A program made the position numbers and the translations under genes. Below the pieces are notes generated by a model. It saw nothing but the letters and a program-made list of their open reading frames with translations. It had not been told where the DNA came from and did not search any database. A stretch of DNA of 64,000 nucleotides from Desulfomicrobium escambiense DSM 10707 (GTDB taxonomy: Bacteria; Desulfobacterota; Desulfovibrionia; Desulfovibrionales; Desulfomicrobiaceae): contig NZ_AUAR01000014.1 in assembly GCF_000428825.1 (NCBI RefSeq), positions 1 through 64,000 of the forward strand, given 5' to 3'. Below are positions 15,811-29,681 of this stretch, piece by piece (the stretch's first letter is position 1; the number at the start of each line of letters is the position of its first letter).

Positions 15811-16314
15811 TCAGATATCCAGGGCTTCGGGGACGCGTTCGACGTGGCTGATGGACAATGCGTCCGGACCGGCCTGCGGCATCGCGACGGGGACGGTTCG
15901 CGGCTGCTCGCAAAGCGGCGTCGGCACATCGGCCCTCAGCGGCGCCGACGTCTCCCTTGGCGCGGCACAGACATCCCCGAGACCGGGCAGGGGCCGCACC
16001 TGCTGCGAAACCAACGGTTGCGCACAGACGGCAAACGCTTCGGCATCCCGATACGGATGGGCCGGGCAGGCGGGCTGACCGCCCATGGGCCTGTCGGCGC
16101 TGCATTCACGCACGGATTCGGCGTCTCCAGCGCACACCAGGCAAAAATTCCGGATGCATTCCTGCAACTCCGCGTCGTTTCCGTCCTCCTCCAGGCGGCA
16201 AGCATGCAGGGGGCAGGAAACCTGGGCGCATTCCCTGACACGCATCCAGCTCTTTCCCTGACACCACAGACAAATCCTCCGGACGACCCCGGACATTCCT
16301 TTCCTGGCGGCCAT
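15811..16314 (-). CDS. Cysteine-repeat protein, function unknown
   Basis: A 167-residue protein with two clear copies of a C-x2-C...VREC...CPxH motif: ICLWCQGKSWMRVRECAQVS then CPLHACR (residues about 14-42), and FCLVCAGDAESVREC then CPAHPYR (about 57-90). A weaker third Cys cluster follows (AVCAQP, DVCAAP). The spacing suggests metal or nucleic acid binding modules like those seen in uncharacterised Desulfovibrio and phage proteins; this comparison is from memory. The start at 16314 has AAGGAG eight bases upstream. The C-terminal third is proline-rich and looks disordered. Confidence 0.7.
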   Translation of the reverse strand: MAARKGMSGVVRRICLWCQGKSWMRVRECAQVSCPLHACRLEEDGNDAELQECIRNFCLVCAGDAESVRECSADRPMGGQPACPAHPYRDAEAFAVCAQPLVSQQVRPLPGLGDVCAAPRETSAPLRADVPTPLCEQPRTVPVAMPQAGPDALSISHVERVPEALDI

Positions 16315-16462
16315 GCGCACCACTCCTTGGTCCTGGCGGAACGAACCGCCATGACTTTACGCACGAAAGCCCCGCGCAGCAACGCCTAAATGCATGCGGA
16401 CACCTCAGGGCCCCGGGACAAAAAAAACGCGGCAAGAAAATGACCGGCGGTCATAAAAGCCC

Positions 16463-16492
16463 TTGACAGCACGACGCCAACCTGAGTACTCA
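16463..16492 (+). promoter_or_regulatory. Possible promoter of the aromatic supraoperon
   Basis: A perfect TTGACA (16463-16468) is followed after 18 bases by TACTCA, a poor -10 match. Transcription from it would begin near 16499, leaving almost no 5' leader before the ATG at 16503. The position fits the attenuator, but the -10 is unconvincing. Confidence 0.4.
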
Positions 16493-16502
16493 CGCAATCG
16501 TT

Positions 16503-16589
16503 ATGACAAACTTCTCCCTCAATCACAGCCTGTACTTTTTTTGGTACTTTTATTTTAGCAGAGCCTGTGGTCTGAGGGGACTGCTTTAG
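16503..16589 (+). CDS. Aromatic leader peptide of the aro-phe-tyr-trp supraoperon
   Basis: The 28-codon ORF reads MTNFSLNHSLYFFWYFYF followed by SRACGLRGLL and a TAG stop. Residues 11-18 are Tyr Phe Phe Trp Tyr Phe Tyr Phe, eight aromatic codons in a row, with another Phe at 4. Such runs mark the sensing peptide of ribosome-mediated attenuators (trpL, pheL). Here one peptide samples all three aromatic amino acids, matching an operon that makes all three. It lies just before a strong terminator and the first aro gene. No Shine-Dalgarno sequence precedes the ATG, which may mean a leaderless or nearly leaderless transcript. Confidence 0.85.
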   Translation: MTNFSLNHSLYFFWYFYFSRACGLRGLL

Positions 16590-16649
16590 CCATATTGACG
16601 AAAGCACGACAACCAAAGGGCCGCAGGCGACAAGCCGGCGGCCCTTTTT
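16557..16649 (+). promoter_or_regulatory. Transcription attenuator: alternative antiterminator and terminator helices
   Basis: Three mutually exclusive helices can be drawn. Segment 16557-16561 (AGCAG) pairs with 16581-16585 (CTGCT). Segment 16563-16573 (GCCTGTGGTCT) pairs with 16618-16628 (GGGCCGCAGGC) over 11 contiguous pairs including three G-U; this would hold the ascending arm of the terminator. The terminator itself is 16615-16647. A ribosome stalled on the aromatic codons (16533-16556) would leave 16563-16573 free and favour antitermination; one reaching the stop at 16587 would cover it. Confidence 0.8.
16615..16649 (+). terminator. Attenuator terminator upstream of the first aro gene
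   Basis: AAAGGGCCGC / GCGGCCCTTT with a short inner GGC/GCC helix, followed by TT and G. It lies between the leader ORF stop and the ADH synthase ATG, so it must be conditional for the operon to be expressed. Confidence 0.92.
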
Positions 16650-16691
16650 GATTACGGACCGCCGAAAGCCCGGCCGCAACCGGAGGACATC

Positions 16692-17498
16692 ATGAACATC
16701 GGCAAAAGCGTACGACTGGAACGCATCTTCAACCGCAACACCGGGCGTAGCATCATCGTGCCCCTGGACCACGGGACCACCGTCGGCCCCATCGCCGGCC
16801 TGGTGGACCTGCGCGACACGGTCAACAAGGTCGCCGAAGGCGGCGCCAACGCGGTCCTGATGCACAAGGGCCTGCCCCGCTGCGCCCACCGCGGCCACGG
16901 CCGCGACGTGGGCCTCATCATCCACCTCTCGGCCAGCACGACCCTTTCCCCCTTCCCCAACGCCAAGATCCTGGTCAGTTCCGTGGAGGACGGCATCAAG
17001 CTCGGCGCCGACGCCGTGTCCGTGCACCTGAACCTGGGCGACGAGTCCGAGCGGGACATGCTGCGCGACATGGGCGAGGTGGCCTCCAAGTGCAACGAAT
17101 GGGGCATGCCGCTTCTGGCCATGATCTACGCCCGCGGCCCCAAGGTGAAGTCCGAATGGGACCCGGCCACGGTGGCCCACTGCGCCCGCCTCGGCGAGGA
17201 ACTCGGCGCCGACGTGATCAAGGTCGTGTACACCGGCGACGTGGATTCCTTCGCCCGGGTGACCGAGGGCTGCTGCGTGCCCGTGGTCATCGCCGGCGGC
17301 CCGCGCATGGACTCCCCCCGCGACATCCTGCAGATGGCCCACGACTCCATCGTCGCCGGCGGCGCAGGCCTGTCCATGGGCCGCAACATCTTCCAGGCCG
17401 ACGACCCGACCCGTCTGGTGCAGGCCCTGCACGCCGTGGTACACATGGACTACAGCGTCGACCAGGCCCTGGCCCTGCTCGAAGAACCCAAAATCTAA
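16692..17498 (+). CDS. 2-amino-3,7-dideoxy-D-threo-hept-6-ulosonate synthase (AroA')
   Basis: This class I aldolase-type enzyme makes the seven-carbon precursor of dehydroquinate in the alternative, archaeal-type entry to the shikimate pathway, replacing DAHP synthase. The 268 residues show the aldolase-family start SIIVPLDHGTT near 20, a probable Schiff-base Lys in DVIKVVYTGD near 179, and the phosphate-binding VIAGGP...GGAGLSMGRNIFQ region. It is the first structural gene after the attenuator, with GGAGGACATC before the ATG, and is followed after nine bases by its pathway partner AroB'. Confidence 0.93.
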   Translation: MNIGKSVRLERIFNRNTGRSIIVPLDHGTTVGPIAGLVDLRDTVNKVAEGGANAVLMHKGLPRCAHRGHGRDVGLIIHLSASTTLSPFPNAKILVSSVEDGIKLGADAVSVHLNLGDESERDMLRDMGEVASKCNEWGMPLLAMIYARGPKVKSEWDPATVAHCARLGEELGADVIKVVYTGDVDSFARVTEGCCVPVVIAGGPRMDSPRDILQMAHDSIVAGGAGLSMGRNIFQADDPTRLVQALHAVVHMDYSVDQALALLEEPKI

Positions 17499-17507
17499 GG
17501 CCGGGAC

Positions 17508-18476
17508 ATGAAAAACGTACTCTTCTGCGCCGTGCCCTTCGACAAGGGCGAAGTCACCCTGGCCCTGGAGTCCGGCGTCGACGCCGTCATCACGGACCGC
17601 GAACACGTCGCCGCCGTGCAGGCCCTGAGCAAGACCCCGGTCCTGGCAGCCGAAGACCAGCCCTACGTCCGACTCGACAGCAAGGCCGACGAGGAGGAGG
17701 CCGTGCGCCTTCTCGCCCAGGGCCGGGACGTCATCCTGCGCGAAGGCTGGGAGATCATCCCCGTGGAGAACATCCTGGCCCAATCCGACCGTCTGGCCGT
17801 GGAGGCGTCGAGCCTGGAGCGGGCGCGCCTGGCGGCGGGCATTCTCGAACGCGGCGTCAAAACAGTGGTCGTCCTGCCCTCGGCCGCCGCCGACCTCAAG
17901 ACCATCGTCCGCGAACTCAAACTGAGCCAGGGAACCATGGAACTGGAAGCCGCCACCATCACCGCCGTGACCTCGGCTGGCCTGGGCCACCGCGTCTGCG
18001 TCGACACCATGAGCCTTTTGAAAACCGGCCAGGGCATGTTGGTGGGCAACTCCAGCGCCTTCACCTTCCTGGTCAACGCCGAGACCGAGTCCAACCCCTA
18101 CGTGGCCCCACGCCCCTTCCGCATCAACGCCGGCGCCGTGCACGCCTACGCCGTCATGCCCGGGGACCGCACCACCTATCTCGACGAGCTGAAAACCGGC
18201 TCCGAAGTCCTCGTCGTCGGCGCCGACGGCTCCACCACCCTGGCCACCGTGGGCCGCTGCAAGGTCGAGATCCGGCCCATGCTGCTCATCGAAGCCGAGT
18301 GCGGAGGACGCAAGGGCACCGTCTTCCTGCAGAACGCCGAAACCATCCGCATGGTCCGCGACGACGGACGCCCCGTCAGCGTGGTGGACCTTCAGGCCGG
18401 GGACAAGGTGCTCTGCCGCACGGACCAGGCCGGACGGCACTTCGGCATGCGCATCACCGAGGAGATCAGCGAATGA
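17508..18476 (+). CDS. 3-dehydroquinate synthase II (AroB')
   Basis: It converts the product of AroA' to 3-dehydroquinate by NAD-dependent oxidative deamination and cyclisation. The 322 residues carry the family block GLGHRVCVDTMSLLKTGQGM and VGNSSAFTFLVN near 165-200, and the C-terminal GDKVLCRTDQAGRHFG. It bears no relation to the usual AroB. Its stop overlaps the pheA start (ATGA), so the two are translationally coupled. Confidence 0.95.
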   Translation: MKNVLFCAVPFDKGEVTLALESGVDAVITDREHVAAVQALSKTPVLAAEDQPYVRLDSKADEEEAVRLLAQGRDVILREGWEIIPVENILAQSDRLAVEASSLERARLAAGILERGVKTVVVLPSAAADLKTIVRELKLSQGTMELEAATITAVTSAGLGHRVCVDTMSLLKTGQGMLVGNSSAFTFLVNAETESNPYVAPRPFRINAGAVHAYAVMPGDRTTYLDELKTGSEVLVVGADGSTTLATVGRCKVEIRPMLLIEAECGGRKGTVFLQNAETIRMVRDDGRPVSVVDLQAGDKVLCRTDQAGRHFGMRITEEISE

Positions 18477-19591
18477 CCTCCGCCACGCAGCGCCTGACCG
18501 AGATCCGCGAACAGATCGACGCCCTGGACGAGAAGCTCCTCGACCTGCTGAACAAGCGCGCGGGCCTGAGCCGCGAGGTGGGCCAGATCAAGTCCGACTC
18601 CCTGGACGTGGTCTTCAAACCCTTCCGGGAGAAGGAGGTCTTGAACCGCCTCCTGGCCATGAGCCCCGGCGTCCTGCCCGAAGACCACCTGCGCGCCATC
18701 TACCGCGAGATCCTGTCCTCGTCGCGCCGCCTACAGCAACCCCAGACCGTGGCCTACCTCGGGCCCGAGGGCACCTTCACGCATCTGGCGGGCCTGGAGT
18801 ACCTGGGCCGGTCCATGGATTTCACGCCCTGCCCGACCCTGCACGACGTGTTCCTGACCGTGGCTTCGCGCAAGGCCGACTTGGGCGTCATTCCGCTCGA
18901 AAACTCCCTGCAGGGCAGCGTCGGCCAAAGCCTGGACCTCTTCCTGCAGTACAACGTCTACATCCACGCCGAACTCTTCAGCCGCATCAGCCACGCCCTG
19001 CTGGCCACTCGCACGGACCTGGCCGCCATCCGCACGGTCTACTCCCACCCCCAGGCCCTGGCCCAGTGTTCGGAGTGGCTCAGGACCAACGTGCCCCAGG
19101 CCGCCGTGGTCCCGGTGGAGAGCACCGCCGCCGCGGCCGCCCGCGCCGAGCGCGAGGGCGAGGGCGCGGCCGCCATCGGCCACCCGCGCCTGGTGGAGCG
19201 CTACGGGCTCAAGGCCGTGGCCCTGGACATCCAGGACCTGCCCGACAACTGGACGCGATTTTTGGTCATCGGCCCCACGCCCACGGTCGGCAGCAGCCGC
19301 GACAAGACGTCGCTGCTTTTCACCACGCCCGACCGACCCGGCGCCCTGGCCGCCATCCTGAACCACCTGGCCGACCAGGGGCTCAACCTGACCAAGCTGG
19401 AGTCGCGGCCGCTCAAAGGCGAAAAGTGGAAGTACGTCTTCTTCATGGACGTGGAGTGCGACCTGTCCCAAGAGCAGTACGAGAACACCATGAAGCACCT
19501 GACCAGCCTCTGCCACACCATGCGCGTGCTGGGCAGCTACCCCACGGGCCCGCACCTCTACGGCGCAGGCATGCCTCAGGAACAGTCATGA
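18473..19591 (+). CDS. pheA: Bifunctional chorismate mutase / prephenate dehydratase
   Basis: It commits chorismate to phenylalanine. The 372 residues comprise an AroQ chorismate mutase (about 5-85, EIREQIDALDEKLLDLLNKR), a prephenate dehydratase (about 92-270, AYLGPEGTFTHLA and the catalytic Thr-Arg-Phe in NWTRFLVIG), and a C-terminal ACT domain (about 283-360) with the Phe-binding motif LTKLESRP, so Phe feedback is expected. A much longer frame reads through upstream genes; the ATGA overlap with AroB' sets the start. Confidence 0.96.
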   Translation: MTSATQRLTEIREQIDALDEKLLDLLNKRAGLSREVGQIKSDSLDVVFKPFREKEVLNRLLAMSPGVLPEDHLRAIYREILSSSRRLQQPQTVAYLGPEGTFTHLAGLEYLGRSMDFTPCPTLHDVFLTVASRKADLGVIPLENSLQGSVGQSLDLFLQYNVYIHAELFSRISHALLATRTDLAAIRTVYSHPQALAQCSEWLRTNVPQAAVVPVESTAAAAARAEREGEGAAAIGHPRLVERYGLKAVALDIQDLPDNWTRFLVIGPTPTVGSSRDKTSLLFTTPDRPGALAAILNHLADQGLNLTKLESRPLKGEKWKYVFFMDVECDLSQEQYENTMKHLTSLCHTMRVLGSYPTGPHLYGAGMPQEQS

Positions 19592-20934
19592 ACTCCGTCA
19601 TCGATATCACCGCGCCGTCGTCCAAGTCCCTGTCGCACCGGGCGCTCATCTGCGCGGCCCTGGCCGAGGGCGAGTCCCTGCTCGAAGGCGTCCTCGACAG
19701 CCAGGATCTGACCCGCACGGCCCAGTGCCTGCGGCAGCTCGGCGCGGTCATCGAACCACAAGGCGAGAAGCTTTTCGTGCGCGGCAGCGGTGGCCGGGCC
19801 TTGCCGGACGCCTCCGGTGTCATTTCCATGAACGTAGGCGAGTCCGGCACCACCTGCCGCCTCATGGCCGGCGTGGTCACGGCCATCCCCGGCGCCTACC
19901 GCATTCACGGCGAGGGCCGCATGCACGACCGGCCCGTCCGGCACCTGACGGACGCGCTCATCCAGCAGGGCGTGGACGTGGCCTTCGAGGACAAGGACGG
20001 CTACCCGCCCGTGGTCCTGACCAGCCGGGGCCTTGCGGGAGGCGAGGTGACCATCAACCTGGAGCAGAGCAGCCAGTACCTCTCGGGCCTGCTCCTGGCC
20101 GCCCCGCTGGCGGCCGGGCCGACCGTCATCCGGCTCATGGGCCGGACCATCGCCTCCTGGCCCTATGTCGCCCTGACGCTGGACTCCATGGCCCGCTTCG
20201 GCGTGCCCGTGAGCCTGGAGCGCCGCGCGGCCGACGGCTGGGCGCCCTGCACCCACGCGGGAGCAGCAAACCTTCCGCCCGTGGACATCCGGCTCGTCGT
20301 CCACCCGGCGCCGTATCGGTCCGGCGCCATGCGCGTCGAGGGCGACTGGTCCAACGCCTCCTATTTCCTGGCCGCCGGGGCCGTGGGCAAGGCGCCTGTG
20401 CGCATCGCCGGCCTGAACCGCGATTCGGCCCAGGGCGACCGGTTCATGCTCGACATCCTGGAGCGCATGGGTGGGCGCGTGGAGTGGGACGGCGACGCCG
20501 TCACGGTCTTCCCGTCGGCTCTGCGCGGCGCGAGGATCGACATGAACGCCTGCCCGGACATCGTGCCCACGGTGGCGGCCATGGCCGCCTTCGCAACCGG
20601 CGAGACGATCATTTCCGGCGCGGCGCACCTGGCCCTCAAGGAGTGCGACCGCATCCAGGGACCAGTCACGGAGTTGTCCAAAGCCGGCGTGGGCATCGAA
20701 GCCCGGCCCGACGGCATGGTCATCCGCGGCACCGGAACCCTCCCGCAGCGCAGCGTCGACCTGTGCACCTACGGCGACCATCGCATGGCAATGAGCCTGT
20801 CCCTGCTGGAACTGGCCGGAATCACAGTGCGCCTGGACAACCCCGGCTGCGTGGCCAAGTCCTTCCCCGGGTTCTGGGATGTGTGGGCCAAGATTCGCTT
20901 CGGCAACGGCATCGGAGCGCATCATGCTGCGTGA
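19588..20934 (+). CDS. aroA: 3-phosphoshikimate 1-carboxyvinyltransferase (EPSP synthase)
   Basis: It joins shikimate-3-phosphate and PEP in the pathway to chorismate. The 448 residues show SSKSLSHRAL at the N-terminus (substrate Lys), HDRPVRHLTDAL, ALKECDRI and YGDHRMAMS near the C-terminus. The usual NAGT loop reads ESGTTCRLM here, a divergent form that could affect inhibitor sensitivity. The start overlaps the pheA stop (ATGA); the alternative longer frame belongs to no gene. Confidence 0.95.
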   Translation: MNSVIDITAPSSKSLSHRALICAALAEGESLLEGVLDSQDLTRTAQCLRQLGAVIEPQGEKLFVRGSGGRALPDASGVISMNVGESGTTCRLMAGVVTAIPGAYRIHGEGRMHDRPVRHLTDALIQQGVDVAFEDKDGYPPVVLTSRGLAGGEVTINLEQSSQYLSGLLLAAPLAAGPTVIRLMGRTIASWPYVALTLDSMARFGVPVSLERRAADGWAPCTHAGAANLPPVDIRLVVHPAPYRSGAMRVEGDWSNASYFLAAGAVGKAPVRIAGLNRDSAQGDRFMLDILERMGGRVEWDGDAVTVFPSALRGARIDMNACPDIVPTVAAMAAFATGETIISGAAHLALKECDRIQGPVTELSKAGVGIEARPDGMVIRGTGTLPQRSVDLCTYGDHRMAMSLSLLELAGITVRLDNPGCVAKSFPGFWDVWAKIRFGNGIGAHHAA

Positions 20935-21703
20935 CGCGTCCTCCCCCGTGGTCGTCATCGGCGCCAAGGGTCAGATGGGCGCGCGTTTCGCGCGTGCTTT
21001 TCGCGACGCCGGGCACCCGGTGGCGGAATTCGACCACCCGCTGGACCAAGGCGCCCTGCCGCAGGCCGTGCGCATGGCCGGGCTGGTGCTCCTGTGCGTG
21101 CCCATCACGGCCATGCGCGAGGTGGTCAAGATCGTTGCCCCGCACCTGACGGAAGAAACAATTCTGGCCGACATCTGCTCCGTGAAGGTCCAGCCCCTGC
21201 ACGAGATGCTCGACGCCACCACCACGCCCGTCGTCGGCACCCACCCGCTTTTCGGCCCCCAGACACTTGACGCGGAGCTGCGAATTGCCGTAACTCCAGG
21301 GCGTGGCCAGGAAGCGACCGATAATCTATCAGACTGCTTCCGCAACCTGGGGTTCGCCCCCTTCACCACGACGGCCGATGAGCATGACAGTGCCATGGCC
21401 TACATTCAAGGACTGAACTTCGTGACAACCGTCGCCTACCTTTGCGCCTCCCCCCTGGAAACCGGAATCGAGCGGTTCTTCACGCCCTCGTTCGGTCGGC
21501 GCATGGAAGCGGCCACGAAAATGATCACCGAGGACGCATCCCTCTTCTCCACCATGTTCGAAGCAAACCCCCACAGCCTCGAGGCCGTACGCATGTTCCG
21601 TTCGTACCTGAACGTCGCCGCCGGCGGCGATCTGGAACTGCTGAGCCAGAAGGCTCTTTGGTGGTGGCGCAAGCAGCATGACGCAGGGGGACCCGCTTCC
21701 TGA
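20924..21703 (+). CDS. tyrA: Prephenate dehydrogenase, with a Trp-Trp-Trp C-terminus
   Basis: It converts prephenate to 4-hydroxyphenylpyruvate for tyrosine synthesis. The 259 residues have an N-terminal nucleotide fold (VIGAKGQMGARFARAF), the catalytic-region THPLFGPQTL near 105, and a helical C-terminal domain. The start with GGAG upstream overlaps aroA by 11 bases. The last residues are ALWWWRKQHDAGGPAS: Trp246-248 are consecutive TGG codons 34 bases before the stop. Their position directly before a terminator suggests that the end of tyrA doubles as the leader of a Trp-specific attenuator for the trp genes. Confidence 0.94.
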   Translation: MLRDASSPVVVIGAKGQMGARFARAFRDAGHPVAEFDHPLDQGALPQAVRMAGLVLLCVPITAMREVVKIVAPHLTEETILADICSVKVQPLHEMLDATTTPVVGTHPLFGPQTLDAELRIAVTPGRGQEATDNLSDCFRNLGFAPFTTTADEHDSAMAYIQGLNFVTTVAYLCASPLETGIERFFTPSFGRRMEAATKMITEDASLFSTMFEANPHSLEAVRMFRSYLNVAAGGDLELLSQKALWWWRKQHDAGGPAS

Positions 21704-21779
21704 CGGCATGCAGTGCCGTCGGTAAAGGTACAAAAGGCTTGAAAGGCCGGATCCTCCTGCAGGATCCGGCCTTTTTTTT
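21659..21779 (+). promoter_or_regulatory. Internal Trp attenuator at the tyrA-trpE junction
   Basis: TGG TGG TGG (21659-21667) lies in the tyrA frame. Segment 21683-21695 (GCAGGGGGACCCG) can pair with 21748-21760 (CGGATCCTCCTGC): 12 of 13 positions pair, with one G-U and one C-A mismatch. This would occupy the terminator's ascending arm and loop. A ribosome stalled at the Trp codons would leave 21683-21695 free; one at the tyrA stop (21701) would cover it. A further hairpin, GACGGCA / TGCCGTC (21702-21720), surrounds the stop and can compete with pairing of 21676-21683 to 21704-21711. Confidence 0.78.
21742..21779 (+). terminator. Strong intrinsic terminator between tyrA and trpE
   Basis: AAAGGCCGGATCC / GGATCCGGCCTTT, a perfect 13-bp stem with a seven-base loop, followed by five further T residues. 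It lies 39 bases after the tyrA stop and 35 bases before the trpE ATG, leaving no room for a promoter between it and trpE. Confidence 0.95.
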
Positions 21780-21814: not shown

Positions 21815-23227
21815 ATGATCACCCTACCGCAACAGGGAACCTGGCTCCCGGCGGACACCCAGACGCCCATCTCCCTGTACCTCACGCTGGTGCGGGACAA
21901 GCAGGGCTTCCTGCTGGAGAGCACCGAGGTCGACGGCCGCCTGGGCCGCTACAGCCTCATCGGCTGGGACTACCGGATGATCCTGTCCTGCGTGGACGGC
22001 AAGCTCGACGTGCAGAGCTACGACCCGCGCCTGCACCCGCTCAAGGAATTCAGCGGCCGGGAATACGTGCAGGGCCTGCGCGCCTGCCTGAACGAGCTTA
22101 CCGTCACGGGCCCCGAGAACCTGGGCAAGCTCCCGGCCGTGACCAGGAGCGTGTGCGGCTACATGGCCTACAACATGGCCGGCATCTTCGAGCCGGCCCT
22201 GGCCGACCGGCTGCGGCCCGAGGAAGGGCGTTCCATCATGGTCCTGCCGGGCAAGGTCATCCTCTTCGACCACCTGCACCACCGCTGCTGCTACCTGACG
22301 CTGGATTCGACCACCAGCCTGAACGGCTGCCAGCGTCCGAGCACCCCGGCCCCGCCCATGGTCGGCGGCATCGCCACCACGCCGGGCCAGGATGAATTCC
22401 TGCGCCGGGTGGGCCGGGCCAAGGAGCTCATCACCGAGGGCGAGGCCATCCAGATCGTGCTCTCGACGCGCTTCTCCGCCCCCTTCACGGGCTCCCCCTT
22501 CGAGCTGTACCGCCGGCTGCGCCAGATCAACCCCTCGCCCTACACCTTCTTCATGTCCTTCGGAGAACTCACGATCATGGGCTCCTCGCCGGAACTGCTC
22601 ATCCGCTGCGAAGATGGACTGCTCCAACTGCGCCCCATCGCTGGCACCCGCGTGCGCGGCGCCACCGAGGCCGAGGACCAGGAACTGGCCGAGGACCTGC
22701 TGGCCGACGAGAAGGAGCGGGCCGAGCACGTCATGCTCGTGGATTTGGGCCGAAACGATCTCGGCCGTATCGCCGCCCCCGGCACGGTACACGTCGACAG
22801 GTACATGCAAGTCGAGCGTTTCTCCCACGTCATGCACCTGACCTCCTACCTCTCGGCCCGCCTGGCCGAAGGGCTCGATGCCATCGACGTGCTGAAGGCC
22901 GGTTTCCCGGCCGGGACGGTTTCGGGCGCGCCCAAGATCCGGGCCATGCAGATCATCGCCGACGAGGAGAAGCTGGATCGCGGGCCCTACGCCGGCGGCA
23001 TCGGCTGGATCGGCCTGGACCAGGGGCAGGTCAACCTCGACACGGGCATCACCATCCGCTCCCTGTGGGTCGAGAACGGCCAGATCCACTGGCAGGCGGG
23101 CGCGGGGCTGGTCTTCGACTCGGACCCCGAGAAGGAATGGCAGGAGTGTCACAACAAGGCCAGAGCGATTTTGAAGGCCATCACCAGCACCGGAGGCGGC
23201 GATGATTTTACTGATAGACAACTTTGA
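21815..23227 (+). CDS. trpE: Anthranilate synthase component I
   Basis: TrpE makes anthranilate from chorismate with ammonia supplied by TrpG. The 470 residues include the Trp feedback element LLES near residue 28, and the chorismate-binding C-terminal domain with IQIVLSTRF, SPELLIR, PIAGTRVRG, DLGRNDLGRI and the GTVSGAPKIRAM block. GGAG precedes the ATG. It is the first gene after the internal attenuator, and its 3' end overlaps trpG by 26 bases, fitting stoichiometric subunit synthesis. Confidence 0.97.
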   Translation: MITLPQQGTWLPADTQTPISLYLTLVRDKQGFLLESTEVDGRLGRYSLIGWDYRMILSCVDGKLDVQSYDPRLHPLKEFSGREYVQGLRACLNELTVTGPENLGKLPAVTRSVCGYMAYNMAGIFEPALADRLRPEEGRSIMVLPGKVILFDHLHHRCCYLTLDSTTSLNGCQRPSTPAPPMVGGIATTPGQDEFLRRVGRAKELITEGEAIQIVLSTRFSAPFTGSPFELYRRLRQINPSPYTFFMSFGELTIMGSSPELLIRCEDGLLQLRPIAGTRVRGATEAEDQELAEDLLADEKERAEHVMLVDLGRNDLGRIAAPGTVHVDRYMQVERFSHVMHLTSYLSARLAEGLDAIDVLKAGFPAGTVSGAPKIRAMQIIADEEKLDRGPYAGGIGWIGLDQGQVNLDTGITIRSLWVENGQIHWQAGAGLVFDSDPEKEWQECHNKARAILKAITSTGGGDDFTDRQL

Positions 23228-23786
23228 CTCGTTTACTTTCAACCTGGTTCAGGTTTTCCAGTCTTTGGGCGCAAACCCCTTGGTGCTGCGTAACAACGAG
23301 CCGGAAATCCTGAACCTGGCCGAAAGCCCGGACCTGCGCGGCGCCATCCTCTCCCCCGGCCCAAGCCACCCGCGCAACACGGGGCTGTGCCTGCGGTTTC
23401 TCGACCTGGTGCCCCGGACCACGCCGATCCTTGGCGTCTGTCTCGGCCACCAGACCCTCTCGCACCACAGCGGCGTGACCGTTGGCCAGGCCAGACACAT
23501 CATGCACGGCAAGACCTCGGACATCCGCCACGACGGGACCGGCCTCTTCGAAGGCGTGCCGAACCCCATGCAGATCGGCCGCTACCATTCCCTGGCCGTG
23601 CATGAGGACGGCCGCACGGACCTGCCCTTCGACATCACCGCCCGCACGGAAAACGGCGAAGTCATGGCCCTGGCCTTCCGGGACCGGCCATGGGTCGGCG
23701 TGCAGTTCCACCCCGAGTCCGTGCTCACGCCGGACGGCCCCAAGCTTCTCAAAAACTTCCTGAACATGTGCGACGCCAAGGAGTAA
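23202..23786 (+). CDS. trpG: Anthranilate synthase component II (glutamine amidotransferase)
   Basis: The 194-residue class I amidotransferase supplies ammonia to TrpE. The catalytic triad is visible as Cys in GVCLGHQT and His and Glu in VQFHPESVLT; the oxyanion loop is ILSPGPSHP. It is a stand-alone TrpG, not fused to TrpD. Its start lies inside trpE, so translation is likely coupled. Confidence 0.97.
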   Translation: MILLIDNFDSFTFNLVQVFQSLGANPLVLRNNEPEILNLAESPDLRGAILSPGPSHPRNTGLCLRFLDLVPRTTPILGVCLGHQTLSHHSGVTVGQARHIMHGKTSDIRHDGTGLFEGVPNPMQIGRYHSLAVHEDGRTDLPFDITARTENGEVMALAFRDRPWVGVQFHPESVLTPDGPKLLKNFLNMCDAKE

Positions 23787-23789
23787 GCC

Positions 23790-24791
23790 ATGAACACCAT
23801 AAGCCACATCCTCGAACACCTGACCACGGGCGCGGACCTCTCCGCTCCCCAGGCCCGGGAGGCCTTCGACCTTCTGCTGACCGGCGAAGTCTCCCCGGTG
23901 CAGGCCGGGGCCTTCCTCATGGGCCTGCGCGCCAAGGGCGAGACCGCCGCCGAGCTCTCTGCCGCGGTGGACGCGGCCCTCGGCCAGGCCCGGCTCATCC
24001 CCGGCCTGTCGGGCAAGCGCATCGACACCTGCGGCACGGGCGGCGACGGCCAGCACAGCTTCAACTGCTCCACGGCCGTATCCTTCTTCCTGGCCGACAT
24101 GGGCTACCAGGTCGTCAAGCACGGCAACCGCGCCGTGTCGAGCACGTGCGGCAGCGCCGACGTGGTCGAAGACCTGGGCTACCCGCTGGTCACGGACCCC
24201 GAGGCGGCGCGGGACGAACTGGCCAGGCGCAACTTCGTCTTCCTCTTCGCCCCGCACTTCCACCCGGCCTTCCGCCACGTGGGCCCGGTGCGGCAGCAGC
24301 TCGGCGTGCGGACCATCTTCAACCTCATGGGGCCGCTTTTGAACCCGGCCATGCCCACGCACCAGATCCTGGGCGTGCCGGACTTCCGCTTCGCGCCCAT
24401 GATCGCCCAGGTCCTGGCCGGAAGAAAGGGCCTGGAGCGCGCGGCCATCGTCCACGGCGCAGGCGGCTTCGACGAGCTGACCCCCTGCGGTCCGGGGCAG
24501 GTCATCTTCGTCGAGCACGGCACGATCCGCGACGCGATCATTGACCCGGCCGACTTCGGGCTGGCGACCTGCGTGCCCCGGGACCTGGCCTGCGAAAACA
24601 AGGAGGAGGCCCTGAAGCTGCAACGCCGGGTCCTGGCCGGACAGGGACCGAAGTCCCTCCGGGACATGGTCACCCTGAACCTCGGCGTGGCCCTGCACCT
24701 GCTTGAAGACAATCTGCCCCTGGATATGGCCATGGATATGGCCCAGGCCAAGGTCGAACAGGGCCTGTCCAGCGGAGCGCTCCATGCTTGA
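23790..24791 (+). CDS. trpD: Anthranilate phosphoribosyltransferase
   Basis: TrpD transfers phosphoribose from PRPP to anthranilate. The 333 residues contain the PRPP-binding CGTGGDGQHSFNCSTA, KHGNRAVSSTCGSADV and the NLMGPLLNPA stretch. It starts three bases after trpG and overlaps trpC by eight bases. Confidence 0.97.
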   Translation: MNTISHILEHLTTGADLSAPQAREAFDLLLTGEVSPVQAGAFLMGLRAKGETAAELSAAVDAALGQARLIPGLSGKRIDTCGTGGDGQHSFNCSTAVSFFLADMGYQVVKHGNRAVSSTCGSADVVEDLGYPLVTDPEAARDELARRNFVFLFAPHFHPAFRHVGPVRQQLGVRTIFNLMGPLLNPAMPTHQILGVPDFRFAPMIAQVLAGRKGLERAAIVHGAGGFDELTPCGPGQVIFVEHGTIRDAIIDPADFGLATCVPRDLACENKEEALKLQRRVLAGQGPKSLRDMVTLNLGVALHLLEDNLPLDMAMDMAQAKVEQGLSSGALHA

Positions 24792-25557
24792 AAAATTCCG
24801 GGCCGCCAAACAGGCCGAAATCGATGAGCTGAAGCGCCTACGCGACGCAGGATCCACGCACGCGACCTATGCCGGGCACAGACCGGGCTTCGGAACCGCC
24901 CTGACCGCCCCCGGTTCGTCCGGCATCATCGCCGAATACAAGCGCGCCTCCCCGTCCAAGGGCGACATCAACCTCGGCGTCCCGCCCCACGAGACGTGCG
25001 AAGGCTACGCCCGCGCCGGAGCCTGCGCCCTGTCCATCCTGACCGAGAGCCGCTACTTCAAGGGCGACCTGGCCTTCCTGGCCGAGGTCGCGCCCGTCGG
25101 CCTGCCGCTGCTGCGCAAGGACTTCATCGTCGACCCGCTGCAGGTGGAGGCTACGGCCGCCACGCCGGCCTCGGCCATCCTGCTCATCGTGCGCATGTTC
25201 GAGGACCAGGACGACCTGGCCTATCTGCACGGGCTTTGCGTCTCCCTGCGCCTCGAACCAGTCGTAGAGGTCTTCGACGAGCGGGACCTGGACCGGGCCA
25301 AGGAGCTCGGGGCGCGCATCATCCAGGTCAACAACCGCGACCTGGGCACCCTGGCCACGGACCTCGGCCGCTGTCTGGACATGGTGCGGCGCAAGAAGGA
25401 AGGTGAAATCTGGATCGGGGCCAGCGGCATATCGACCCCGGAACAGGTCCGCGAGCTTCGGTCCGCCGGGCTCGACGCCCTGCTCATCGGCACGGCCCTC
25501 ATGCAACACGGCGACCCGGGCCGCGGGCTGGCCCAACTGGCGGGAGGACGGTCATGA
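24784..25557 (+). CDS. trpC: Indole-3-glycerol phosphate synthase
   Basis: A 257-residue TIM barrel that closes the indole ring. Visible active-site elements are YKRASPSKGDI, LLRKDFIVD, PVVEVFDE, QVNNRDL and GASGIST. The frame is open for 27 codons upstream, but the ATG at 24784 within the last trpD codons gives the normal N-terminus MLEKFRAAKQAEI. It is separate from trpF, not fused. Confidence 0.96.
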   Translation: MLEKFRAAKQAEIDELKRLRDAGSTHATYAGHRPGFGTALTAPGSSGIIAEYKRASPSKGDINLGVPPHETCEGYARAGACALSILTESRYFKGDLAFLAEVAPVGLPLLRKDFIVDPLQVEATAATPASAILLIVRMFEDQDDLAYLHGLCVSLRLEPVVEVFDERDLDRAKELGARIIQVNNRDLGTLATDLGRCLDMVRRKKEGEIWIGASGISTPEQVRELRSAGLDALLIGTALMQHGDPGRGLAQLAGGRS

Positions 25558-26164
25558 TCGTCAAGGTCTGCGGCATGACGCGTCCCGAGGATGTTGAATT
25601 CTGCGACGCCCTGGGCATTGACCTGCTGGGTTTCATCTTCCACGTCCCAAGCCCGCGGAACGTCGCTCCCGGCTGGGTCGCGACGCAGAAACCCAGGCAG
25701 GCCCTCAAGACCGGCGTCTTCGTGCGCCAAGGCGTGGATGAGATCGGCGGCATCGCCCGCGAGGCGGGACTCGACTTGCTTCAGCTCCATGGCGGGCACA
25801 CGCGAGAGCAGTGCCGGGCCCTGGGGTCCGAAAGGGTCATCAAGGCCCTGTGGCCCAAGCGCTACGCCACGATCGAACTGCTGCTCGCGGACATGAAACT
25901 TTTCGCCCCGGTCTGCCGGGCCATCCTTCTGGACAGCGGCACCAGCGGCGGCGGCCACGGCACGAGCCTCGACCCTGCGGACCTGCGGCGTCTGAAGTGT
26001 CCTCACCCCTGGTATCTGGCCGGAGGCCTGGGACCGCACAATCTTGAAACCATGAAAACCACCGGCGCGGCCGGCTTCGACCTCAATTCCGCCGTGGAAA
26101 GCGCGCCAGGGATCAAGGACCACGAGAAAATCCGCCGCTCCGTCAACATATTGCGAGGAAAACC

Positions 26165-26168
<4 letters not shown>
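25554..26168 (+). CDS. trpF: Phosphoribosylanthranilate isomerase
   Basis: A 204-residue TIM barrel catalysing the Amadori rearrangement before TrpC. The general base Cys lies in [12 protein letters not shown] and the general acid Asp in [21 protein letters not shown] forms part of the phosphate site. Start and stop overlap with trpC and trpB by four bases each. Confidence 0.96.
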
Positions 26169-27392
<1,224 letters not shown>

Positions 27393-27403
<11 letters not shown>

Positions 27404-28163
27404 AATCGACACGGCGCTCAAAGGCGCGCACGGCATCCAGCTCATGACCCACGTGGTGGCGGGCTACCCGAGCCTTGAGGCCAACGAGGAGCTGATCCGG
27501 CTCATGGCGAAGCGAGGGGTGAAACTCATCGAGATCCAGATACCTTTCACGGACCCTCTGGCCGACGGCCCGACCATCATGCGCGCCAACCAGGCCGCGC
27601 TGGACTCCGGCATCACACCCAAACACTGTTTCGAACTCTGCGAAAAACTGTCCCGGGAGTTGGATGTGGCCTTCATGTTCATGACCTACGCCAACATCCC
27701 CTTCGCCATGGGTCTGGAACGCTTTCTGGACAAGGCGGCCGCCAGCGGGGCCAGCGGCGTGATCCTGCCGGACCTGCCCTGGGACGAGGCTGACGGGGAT
27801 TATGCGGACATGGCGCGCGAGCGCGGCCTGCACCCGGTCATGGTCATCTCGCCCGACACCGAAGGCCCGCGGCTGGACGCCGTCCTGAAACGCGCCTCGG
27901 GCCTGGTCTACACGACGCTGAAGGTCGGCATCACCGGAGCCGGCGCGGGCATGGACCAGGCCGGGGTCGATTATGTGCGGGGTCTGAAAACAAGGGCCGG
28001 TCTACCCATCGCCGCGGGGTTCGGCATCTCCAGACCCGAACACGTGCGCATGCTGGACGGCCTGGCCGACGCGGCCGTCATCGGCAGCCACATCATCAAT
28101 CTGATGGATGACGGAGGATTGGCGGCCGTGGACGAATTCCTGGCGGCGTGTGCGAAAACATGA
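27393..28163 (+). CDS. trpA: Tryptophan synthase alpha subunit
   Basis: TrpA cleaves indole-glycerol phosphate to indole for channelling into TrpB. The 256-residue barrel has catalytic Glu in [10 protein letters not shown] and Asp in [10 protein letters not shown], plus the [10 protein letters not shown] phosphate loop. It is the last trp gene. No intrinsic terminator is obvious in the 171 bases before glnA. Confidence 0.96.
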
Positions 28164-28252
28164 TTGCACCAGACATGTGCGTGGGGGGAGGGCGGACCTA
28201 CGTGCCCGCCCCCTGCATTTCATGCCATCACGGACCCGCCATTCATTTCCCA

Positions 28253-28264
28253 ATTTTGCAAAAT
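28253..28264. promoter_or_regulatory. Perfect palindrome upstream of glnA
   Basis: ATTTTGCAAAAT is a perfect 12-base palindrome in the trpA-glnA gap, 70 bases before the glnA ATG. It could be an operator; no known consensus is matched with confidence, and no sigma-54 element was found in this gap. Confidence 0.3.
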
Positions 28265-28334
28265 CCCACCCCGCACGAGACAACCGCCCCTCTCTTTGCT
28301 AGCAGAACGGGAAATCATCCTGTGGAGGATCCCC

Positions 28335-29681
28335 ATGCCCGAATATCCCATCTTCAACTGCAAGAATTCCGACGACGTCATCAAGGCCGTGCGCGAGCAT
28401 CGGGTCGAGCTGGTCCAGTTCTGGTTCGTGGACGTGCTGGGCACGCTGAAGAGCTTCCAGGTTCTGCCCGGGGAACTGGAGGCCGCCTTCGAGGAGGGCA
28501 TGGGTTTCGACGGCTCGTCTCTGGAGGGATTTTGCAGAATTGAAGAAAGCGACATGATCGCCATTCCGGACCCGGCCACGTTCCAGCTGGTCACCTGGCG
28601 GCAGACCGCCGCGCCCATCGCGCGCATGTTCTGCGACATCCTGGAGCCAAGTGGGCAACCCTTCGCCGGGGACAGCCGCCATTGTCTGAAGCGCAACCTG
28701 CAGGCGGCCGCGAGCAAGGGCTACTCCTTCTATGTCGGCCCGGAGCTGGAGTTCTTCCTCTTCGAGAGCGCCACTTCGCCCAAGCCCCTGGACGCGGGCG
28801 GCTATTTCGACGCCCCGCCCCTGGACCTGGCCGGGGACATCCGCCGCGAAACCATCTCCTGCCTGCGCTCCATGGGCATCGGCGTCGAGTACGGCCACCA
28901 CGAGGTCGCGCCCAGCCAGCACGAACTGGCCCTGCGTTACGCCGACGCCCTGAAGATGGCCGACACGGCCATCACCTACCGCGTCGTGGTCAAGGAGATC
29001 GCCCGCCAGAACGGCTGCTACGCGACCTTCATGCCCAAGCCCCTGTTCGGCGAGAACGGTAGCGGCATGCACGTCCACCAGTCCCTGTTCAAGAACGGCC
29101 GCAACCTCTTCTACGACGCCGACGGCGATCACCACCTGAGCCGCGAGGCCCGGGCGTACATCGCCGGACTCCTGCGCCACTGCAAGGAATTCACGGCCAT
29201 CACCAACCAGTGGGTCAACTCCTACAAGCGGCTCGTGCCCGGCTTCGAGGCCCCGACAAACATCGCCTGGGCCCGCCGCAACCGCTCGACCCTGGTCCGC
29301 GTGCCCATGTACAAGCCCGGCAAGGAGGCCGCCACCCGCGTGGAACTGCGCTCCCCGGACCCGGCCTGCAACCCCTACCTGGCCTTCGCCTGCATGCTGG
29401 CCGCGGGCCTGAAGGGCATCGAGGAGAACTACGCTCTGCCTGCACCCGTGGAAGAGGACATCTACGTCATGTCCGCCGCCCAGCGCCGCGACCGCGGCAT
29501 CGAGAGCCTGCCCGGAACCCTGGAGGCGGCCCTGGAGGCCATGGAAGGTAGCGCCCTCATCCGCGAAGCCCTGGGCGAGCACATCTTCACCAAGTTCGTC
29601 GAGAACAAGCACGTGGAATGGGACCAGTACCGCTCCCAGGTCACCAACTACGAACTGGAGCGCTACCTGCCCAGACTGTAG
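28335..29681 (+). CDS. glnA: Glutamine synthetase, type I
   Basis: It forms glutamine from glutamate, ammonia and ATP. The 448 residues show the beta-grasp start VQFWFVDVLGTLKSF, GFDGSSLEGF, the metal-ligand segments ELEFFLFE and HHEVAPSQHEL, NGSGMHVHQSLF, KRLVPGFEAP and the substrate Arg in VELRSPDPACNPYLAFA. The length and the C-terminal EEDIYVMSAAQRR region resemble the GSI-alpha group, which is not adenylylated. GGAGGATCCCC precedes the ATG. It follows the trp genes, whose TrpG consumes glutamine; co-transcription is possible but not shown. Confidence 0.93.
   Translation: MPEYPIFNCKNSDDVIKAVREHRVELVQFWFVDVLGTLKSFQVLPGELEAAFEEGMGFDGSSLEGFCRIEESDMIAIPDPATFQLVTWRQTAAPIARMFCDILEPSGQPFAGDSRHCLKRNLQAAASKGYSFYVGPELEFFLFESATSPKPLDAGGYFDAPPLDLAGDIRRETISCLRSMGIGVEYGHHEVAPSQHELALRYADALKMADTAITYRVVVKEIARQNGCYATFMPKPLFGENGSGMHVHQSLFKNGRNLFYDADGDHHLSREARAYIAGLLRHCKEFTAITNQWVNSYKRLVPGFEAPTNIAWARRNRSTLVRVPMYKPGKEAATRVELRSPDPACNPYLAFACMLAAGLKGIEENYALPAPVEEDIYVMSAAQRRDRGIESLPGTLEAALEAMEGSALIREALGEHIFTKFVENKHVEWDQYRSQVTNYELERYLPRL

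Follow-up and report, generated by a model that had tools for sequence, protein, structure and literature searches.

In the enteric trpL and pheL leaders, a short ORF bearing control codons precedes four RNA arms that fold either as a terminator or as an antiterminator, each leader responding to one amino acid. In ilvL, ivbL and thrL, one leader peptide senses several end products of a branched pathway; we know of none among these systems in which a structural gene also supplies a second, internal attenuator.

Other described cases lie closer to the locus studied here in place or in a single feature. A putative attenuator from the Merino database is tabulated at the aroA' supraoperon of D. vulgaris (Song et al. 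2005, PMC1173090, Table 7); by our reading of the table, in whose text the place mark is partly lost, it stands before aroA'. The leader transcript of Sinorhizobium meliloti trpL is leaderless, beginning at the ATG of the ORF that encodes a 14-aa peptide (PMC7298713). In E. coli rph-pyrE, translation of the 3' end of the upstream full-length gene is linked to an intra-operon attenuator (PMC2784333). In the uORFC-13-1 motif, aroF, a first-step aromatic gene, is preceded by a terminator and by a uORF containing one or more Phe codons (PMC8632094).

The window analysed here, a stretch of 64,000 nt from Desulfomicrobium escambiense DSM 10707, carries a supraoperon of twelve genes in the order aroA'-aroB'-pheA-aroA-tyrA-trpE-G-D-C-F-B-A, all on the forward strand and extending to 28163. 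We propose that a ribosome-mediated attenuator ahead of aroA' senses Phe, Tyr and Trp jointly and that a second, Trp-sensing attenuator stands before the trp genes, a reading we hold to be very likely. The computation shows the anatomy, its conservation, the correlation of leader codons with context and, by folding, the stall geometry; the transcription start, ribosome stalling and read-through are inferred. The first gene under this control would be aroA' (16692-17498), which has the Shine-Dalgarno sequence GGAGGA upstream and encodes 2-amino-3,7-dideoxy-D-threo-hept-6-ulosonate (ADH) synthase, with NCBIfam NF005556 and TIGR01949 both above cut-off; the closest named record is a Desulfomicrobium MAG whose AroA' is 99% identical, in a comparison from which records of the genome itself may be absent. 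The genes aroB', pheA, aroA and tyrA follow at 17508-21703 (order and family models), and trpE, trpG, trpD, trpC, trpF, trpB and trpA, the part behind attenuator 2, at 21815-28163. Curated models scored above cut-off for aroB' (3-dehydroquinate synthase II), aroA, trpG and trpD, as they did for both the prephenate dehydratase and the chorismate mutase parts of pheA. For TyrA the best families are prephenate dehydrogenases, all below their cut-offs, and for TrpE the best family is TIGR00564, also below cut-off; trpC, trpF, trpB and trpA were named from sequence and order. A glutamine-synthetase-like ORF (28164-29681, forward strand), recognised by eye, lies directly 3' of trpA. On the other side, a cysteine-rich ORF (15811-16323, reverse strand) is divergent from the leader, and a 245-aa ORF overlaps it on the other strand.

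An earlier note on this DNA had described a 28-codon ORF with eight consecutive aromatic codons, an intrinsic terminator downstream of it and an 11-bp helix competing for the terminator's ascending arm, and all three were found as described, in an arrangement that far exceeds what chance would give. The leader peptide ORF (16503-16589, forward strand, MTNFSLNHSLYFFWYFYFSRACGLRGLL) runs for 28 codons from an ATG to a TAG stop and is predicted to be leaderless. Its codons 11-18 (16533-16556) read Y F F W Y F Y F, an aromatic cluster matching the end products of the operon. When all six frames were scanned, this was the only aromatic run of at least five codons in the window; among 100 dinucleotide-shuffled windows, three contained a single run of five, a fourth contained one of six codons, and the other 96 had none that reached five. 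Intrinsic terminator 1, found by folding (AAAGGGCCGC...GCGGCCCUUU plus a U tract, 16615-16649), sits between the leader ORF and aroA'. Arm 1 (approximately 16514-16536) pairs in the minimum-energy fold with about 16558-16581 to give the 1:2 hairpin. Antiterminator arm 2, GCCUGUGGUCU (16563-16573), lies within the A-C-G-L codons and pairs with arm 3, GGGCCGCAGGC (16618-16628), at 11 of 11 positions, three of them G-U. Arm 3 is common to the antiterminator (2:3) and the terminator (3:4), and a ribosome at the stop codon would mask arm 2, given the mask size assumed below. The fold of 16490-16660 beats all 200 shuffles (z -4.28).

Neither terminator 1 nor a promoter at the leader was listed by a promoter and terminator scanner; our explanation is that TACTCA fails its -10 rule (T at position 6) and that its rules require a loop of 3-8. 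The Rfam families Phe_leader and Trp_leader gave no match at gathering score in positions 16000-17000 of the window or in five related loci. ORFs lie on both strands upstream of the leader, and it is unlikely that terminator 1 is the terminator of an upstream gene. Searching the window's own genome for five consecutive Phe/Tyr codons returned ten matches at nine places (two overlap), six of them in open frames of at least 100 codons and three in short stop-to-stop frames (L269, L271, L272); further leaders elsewhere in the same genome are possible.

The predicted promoter (16463-16492, forward strand; row L081) consists of TTGACA (16463-16468), an 18-nt spacer and a weak -10 element, TACTCA (16487-16492), and its geometry is conserved in relatives. 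It would place the transcription start at about 16499-16500, just before the leader ATG, and no Shine-Dalgarno match is visible before the leader ORF of the window. In the leader survey described below the start codon was chosen partly by promoter distance, and the spacing was retested on the 123 leaders with a single ATG, a set that leaves out L113, L020, L221 and L222. Exact TTGACA occurs within 120 nt of 116 of these 123, against 2.8 expected by shuffling; in 90 of the 123 the distance from its first T to the ATG is 35-40 nt. Such a spacing predicts a start 0-5 nt before the ATG, which makes leaderless initiation of the leader peptide likely; the earlier note had suggested as much from the absent Shine-Dalgarno sequence, and the predicted promoter position lends it support. 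The spacing is found in 87 of 97 leaders in the class with AroA' at least 66% identical and in 3 of 26 in the more distant class, where the promoter-like site is mostly farther upstream. Shine-Dalgarno matches of at least 4 nt precede 38 of 158 leaders, as opposed to 143 of 158 aroA' starts; they are missing from 120 of the leaders but from only 15 of the following aroA' genes.

From the promoter position, RNA polymerase should start a few bases before the leader ATG, and the leader would be translated as a leaderless mRNA. With all three aminoacyl-tRNAs plentiful, the ribosome would reach the stop codon and cover arm 2, leaving arms 3 and 4 to form the terminator. Scarcity of any one of them would stall the ribosome in codons 11-18, arm 2 would be free to pair with arm 3, and polymerase would read through into aroA'-aroB'-pheA-aroA-tyrA. 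In our stall model we assume that the ribosome masks the 13 nt in front of the A site, at a time before arm 4 has been transcribed. The probability of the 2:3 helix at leader 1 is then 1.0 for stalls at codons 11-16, 0.81 at codon 17, 0.44 at codon 18, 0.14 at codon 19 and 0 from codon 20 on. By this geometry the sensing codons sit where a stall frees arm 2, and a ribosome at the stop masks it. Stalls at any codon ahead of the run also free 2:3 (0.99). With no ribosome and arm 4 unmade, the antiterminator is favoured as well (0.69 at leader 1, 0.9 at the tyrA tail considered below), and because 2:3 is favoured even without a ribosome, basal termination is not strongly predicted.

Conservation of the ORF and helices in related genomes had been named in the earlier note as the test that could overturn its proposal, and both proved to be conserved. 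Among 211 oriented loci with an AroA' homologue, 186 distinct upstream regions were long enough to scan for a leader, taken as an ORF of 12-60 codons with at least five aromatic codons in ten at the expected place. Leaders were called in 158 of the 186, while the rule picked up 12 of the 186 reverse complements and 35 of the 558 shuffled sequences; at seven or more aromatic codons the figures are 134/186, 0/186 and 0/558. Among the 158 automatic picks, four are mistaken or open to doubt (L113, whose real leader is elsewhere, L020, L221 and L222), the wrong pick in L113, as in L128, being a spurious ORF far upstream, and three true leaders fall under the threshold (L007, L078, L080). Desulfobacter-type loci, identified by title, have a leader in 12 of 15 cases (not L018 or L035; L020 is doubtful). 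Leaders are present in several other families of the Desulfobacterota, and none was called in others, such as those of L212, L213, L214, L217 and L218. A tandem pair of aroA' copies heads the operon in L043, L047, L152 and L162.

The RNA structure is conserved together with the peptide; R-A-C-G-L, its conserved ending, lies over arm 2. All 158 leaders are followed by a terminator-like hairpin that has a T-rich tail and a stability of at least -15 kcal/mol, against 47 of 158 shuffled regions; such a hairpin is present in 7 of the 28 regions without a leader call, three of these being the sub-threshold leaders. For 145 of the 158, the best antiterminator duplex that the ascending arm can form with sequence following the run is equalled by no more than 5 of 100 shuffles. 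For RNAalifold, two sets of 30 and 99 loci (before removal of identical rows) were used, which lean towards structure because they were preselected for a compact terminator and an antiterminator equalled by at most 10 of 100 shuffles. With arm 4 removed, arm 2 of the window was recovered in the 26 and 91 distinct sequences, with 330 of 338 and 800 of 817 cells of the 2:3 helix paired, respectively. With arm 4 present, the 3:4 fold was obtained, with 375 of 378 cells paired in 27 sequences and 1276 of 1302 in 93, counts that include three pairs of a small hairpin. Double changes occur at 1 of 11 main-helix pairs in set A (U-A 17, C-G 9) and at 3 of 9 in set B; covariation is thin because the 2:3 helix is nearly invariant.

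The codon content of the leaders correlates with their metabolic context. The table that relates the two covers the 72 wide loci that had both a leader call and enough sequence; trp genes stand behind aroA' in 34 of them and not in the other 38. Trp is in the leader core of 33 of the 34 trp-containing operons, and of all 34 once L128 is corrected, where the ORF had been mis-picked and the true leader, MKRENLLQNRRYFFWYFYGNRACGLEGLS, contains Trp; L215, a trp-containing operon outside the order, had no leader call. Among the 38 with no trp genes, a group that takes in stand-alone aroA' copies as well as the doubtful L221 and L222, Trp is missing from 18 leader cores and kept in 20, so codon content is not one-to-one with the operon. 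Fisher's test on the uncorrected table gives p ~1e-5 and ignores relatedness; independent contrasts of trp genes against W on the AroA' tree came to 1.9 in the same and 0 in the opposite direction (3 supported), which is not significant.

Genomes devoid of trpE point the same way. The order sample holds 11 good-quality genomes with no trpE at E 1e-60, and trpD, sought in nine of them, was found in none. Seven of the 11 have a leader, which is Trp-less in five (G004, G014, G104, G119, G149). G004 and G014 belong to the genus of the window, and neither trpE nor trpD was found in them; the aroA' leader core lacks Trp in L226 (G004), where the TyrA tail is LWW and not WWW, and likewise in L007/L095 (G014). 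The drafts G007 and G053, in which trpE and trpD were not found either, nevertheless have a W-containing leader, and their aroA' contigs end inside the operon. G192 had no recognised leader, and G102, G185 and G180 gave no aroA' or a weak match.

Second copies of aroA' form a further series. In 22 genomes with two copies, paired by hand through contig prefix or handle, the leader core of the second copy lacks Trp in 15, beside the three-amino-acid leader of the supraoperon; eight of these leaders are all or nearly all Phe, six are mostly Tyr and one is Phe+Tyr, and no leader was called for the second copy in the remaining seven genomes. A tally over 163 distinct proteins (context unknown for 24) gave, where aroB' is next, 86 leaders with all three amino acids (FYW), 6 Phe+Tyr, 5 Tyr and 1 none, and, without aroB', 14 Phe, 6 Tyr, 5 Phe+Tyr, 6 FYW and 10 none. 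The run and its conservation support the claim that the codons of one leader cover Phe, Tyr and Trp.

The earlier note had also held that this single leader controls the supraoperon. The leader attenuator stood up to analysis and the word 'single' did not: the leader is not the sole gate, and a second, conserved terminator and antiterminator precede the trp half. The 3' end of tyrA (21659-21703, forward strand), the proposed leader peptide of attenuator 2, encodes W-W-W-R-K-Q-H-D-A-G-G-P-A-S-stop at the end of a TyrA C-terminus that reads K-A-L-W-W-W-R-K-Q-H-D-A-G-G-P-A-S; its Trp codons, TGG TGG TGG, lie at 21659-21667 and the tyrA stop at 21701-21703. The A-G-G-P codons form the antiterminator arm, arm 2 of attenuator 2, CAGGGGGACCC (21684-21694, core GGGGGACC at 21686-21693). 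This arm pairs with the ascending arm and loop of the strong intrinsic terminator 2 (AAAGGCCGGATCC / GGATCCGGCCTTT plus a U tract, 21742-21779; arm 3 GGATCCTCC, 21749-21757), a pairing equalled in the window by 1 of 200 shuffles. Control codons, terminator and antiterminator are in register at the tyrA-trpE junction. In the stall model the antiterminator has a probability of 0.9 when the ribosome stands at any of the three TGG codons, and the value is 0 once it has reached the His codon. The WWW codons of TyrA would sense Trp-tRNA, whose scarcity would admit polymerase into trpEGDCFBA.

The wide loci include 28 tyrA-trpE junctions with a gap of at least 84 nt. A terminator of -15 kcal/mol or better is present in 26 of them (not in L162 and L169), against 8 of 84 shuffles, and in 24 of these 26 the antiterminator is equalled by at most 10 of 200 shuffles, the failures being L150 (25/200) and L225 (16/200), which belongs to the window's genus. 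Runs of at least three Trp codons occur in 26 of the 28 junctions; L138 and L162 have two. Where the gap is at most 5 nt, as in five junctions, there is no room for an attenuator. In L160 and L161 tyrA and trpE overlap by 14 nt, which makes an internal attenuator impossible, and WWW is still present. Ten tyrA ends of Desulfovibrionales without trpE behind them include five with such a terminator and one (L146) with the antiterminator too. Within the genus, tyrA tail DNA is mostly invariant across 13 sequences, L259 and L260 differing most; in both, the two strands of the terminator stem carry changes (A-U to U-A), with a matching change in the tyrA arm of L260. Ten of the 13 have an antiterminator that no more than 10 of 200 shuffles equal; the counts for L252, L253 and L256 are 19, 21 and 11.

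Where trpE lies away from aroA', as in 13 genomes whose region upstream of trpE was inspected, the trp operon mostly has a Trp leader of its own. Twelve of the 13 (L228-L230, L232-L240) have a short ORF with WWW (7) or WW (5), and 50-83 nt after its last Trp codon comes a terminator with a stability of at least -15 kcal/mol (10 of 36 in shuffled regions). For 9 of the 12, no more than 10 of 200 shuffles equal the antiterminator. L231, outside the 12 tested, has a weak candidate alone. Some of the peptides (G-W-W-W-R-K-Q-L-R-G-G) resemble the TyrA tail, and a common origin of the split trp leaders and the TyrA tail may be suggested from this likeness.

A terminator with an alternative helix is compatible with any antitermination mechanism, and terminator 1 might be an ordinary one, or one controlled by a protein or metabolite (riboswitch, T-box, TRAP-like), with the aromatic ORF incidental or untranslated. 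We regard this as very unlikely. Control of the T-box or TRAP-like type was considered and is itself unlikely; in the parts searched for T-boxes and riboswitches, no Rfam family reached the gathering score. Moreover, the aromatic content of the ORF is conserved across families, its F, Y and W residues shift with genome context, and the run ends exactly where a stalled ribosome would begin blocking arm 2. It also seems distinctly improbable that a single amino acid, such as Phe or Tyr, is the main signal for the leader and that the others are passengers providing U-rich unstructured sequence. The core codons are strongly U-ending, as passengers of this kind would be: Phe is encoded by TTT 497 and TTC 93 times (n=590) in leader cores versus 207 and 479 times (n=686) in aroA' genes, and Tyr by TAT 291 and TAC 122 times (n=413) versus 217 and 343 times (n=560). 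U-ending codons may keep the run unstructured, and their slower decoding is possible. However, TGG is not U-rich, yet it is present in all the leaders of trp-containing operons (34/34) and absent from those of five of the seven trpE-less genomes having a leader, and the Phe-type and Tyr-type leaders occur on second aroA' copies.

For the tyrA-trpE junction, the alternative is that WWW is a protein motif of TyrA and that the terminator is a fixed, partial one setting the ratio of the two halves of the operon, which we consider rather unlikely though worth keeping in view. A protein role for WWW is possible because TyrA of genus g12 keeps it in 5 of 5 wide loci with no trpE following, and it persists in the overlapping genes of L160 and L161; the three of 13 Desulfomicrobium sequences whose antiterminator is only average, being equalled by 11, 19 and 21 of 200 shuffles, would likewise suit a fixed terminator. 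Against it stand the junction terminators (26/28 junctions, 8/84 shuffles), the antiterminator that accompanies 24 of these 26 and that only 1 of 200 shuffles equals in the window, the tyrA ends without trpE, of which 5 of 10 have such a terminator but only 1 (L146) both features, and the separate WW/WWW leader and terminator of 12 of the 13 split trp operons.

Our overall proposal, which we think probable, is a nested double gate: a leaderless pan-aromatic peptide would open the pathway, the C-terminus of TyrA would open the trp half, and the sensor codons would have been re-cut in evolution. In this nested arrangement, shortage of any aromatic amino acid would open the whole pathway and shortage of Trp alone the trp half. 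The re-cutting would have given Phe-type and Tyr-type leaders to aroA' isozyme copies, removed Trp codons after loss of trp genes and equipped trp genes that are remote from tyrA with a free-standing WW/WWW leader. If true, the proposal would account for the way in which many sulfate reducers, a large group, tune an entire branched pathway through RNA and ribosome, by a nested logic (any aromatic, then Trp) that is absent from textbook attenuators. The natural series of leaders (all three amino acids, Phe-type, Tyr-type, Trp-only, Trp lost) is a ready test of codon-specific sensing, and the leaders are a conserved set for studying leaderless initiation.

The aroA' leader resembles trpL and pheL in its control-codon ORF, its arms 1-4 and the cognate biosynthetic operon downstream. 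It differs in having three amino acids in one run, in preceding a 12-gene supraoperon and in its predicted leaderless start, and, compared with them, no Rfam leader family matched it at gathering score. It shares with ilvL, ivbL and thrL a leader for several amino acids, which there are branched-chain or Thr/Ile and here are aromatic. The openly licensed literature that we searched yielded no account of a three-amino-acid aromatic leader or of an attenuator in a TyrA tail. The D. vulgaris entry concerns the same operon type and place and comes from a database of predicted attenuators; the table entry gives no leader peptide, amino acid specificity or internal attenuator (PMC1173090). S. meliloti trpL offers a precedent for a leaderless leader, but for a trp operon (PMC7298713). 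The uORFC-13-1 motif, as described for Acholeplasma and environmental sequences, has an RBS, unlike the predicted-leaderless aroA' leader (PMC8632094). The nearest precedent for the end of a structural gene serving an internal attenuator is rph-pyrE, which responds to uracil through coupling of translation and transcription, whereas the tyrA tail would use TGG-specific stalling (PMC2784333); if true, an enzyme whose final codons act as a sensor for the genes behind it would carry the rph-pyrE principle over to control by specific amino acids. The locus is thus a known kind of leader-peptide attenuator, deeply conserved, and what is new is that its codons are those of three amino acids and that a second Trp gate follows; the leader is probably leaderless, and the Trp gate seems to borrow the end of TyrA.
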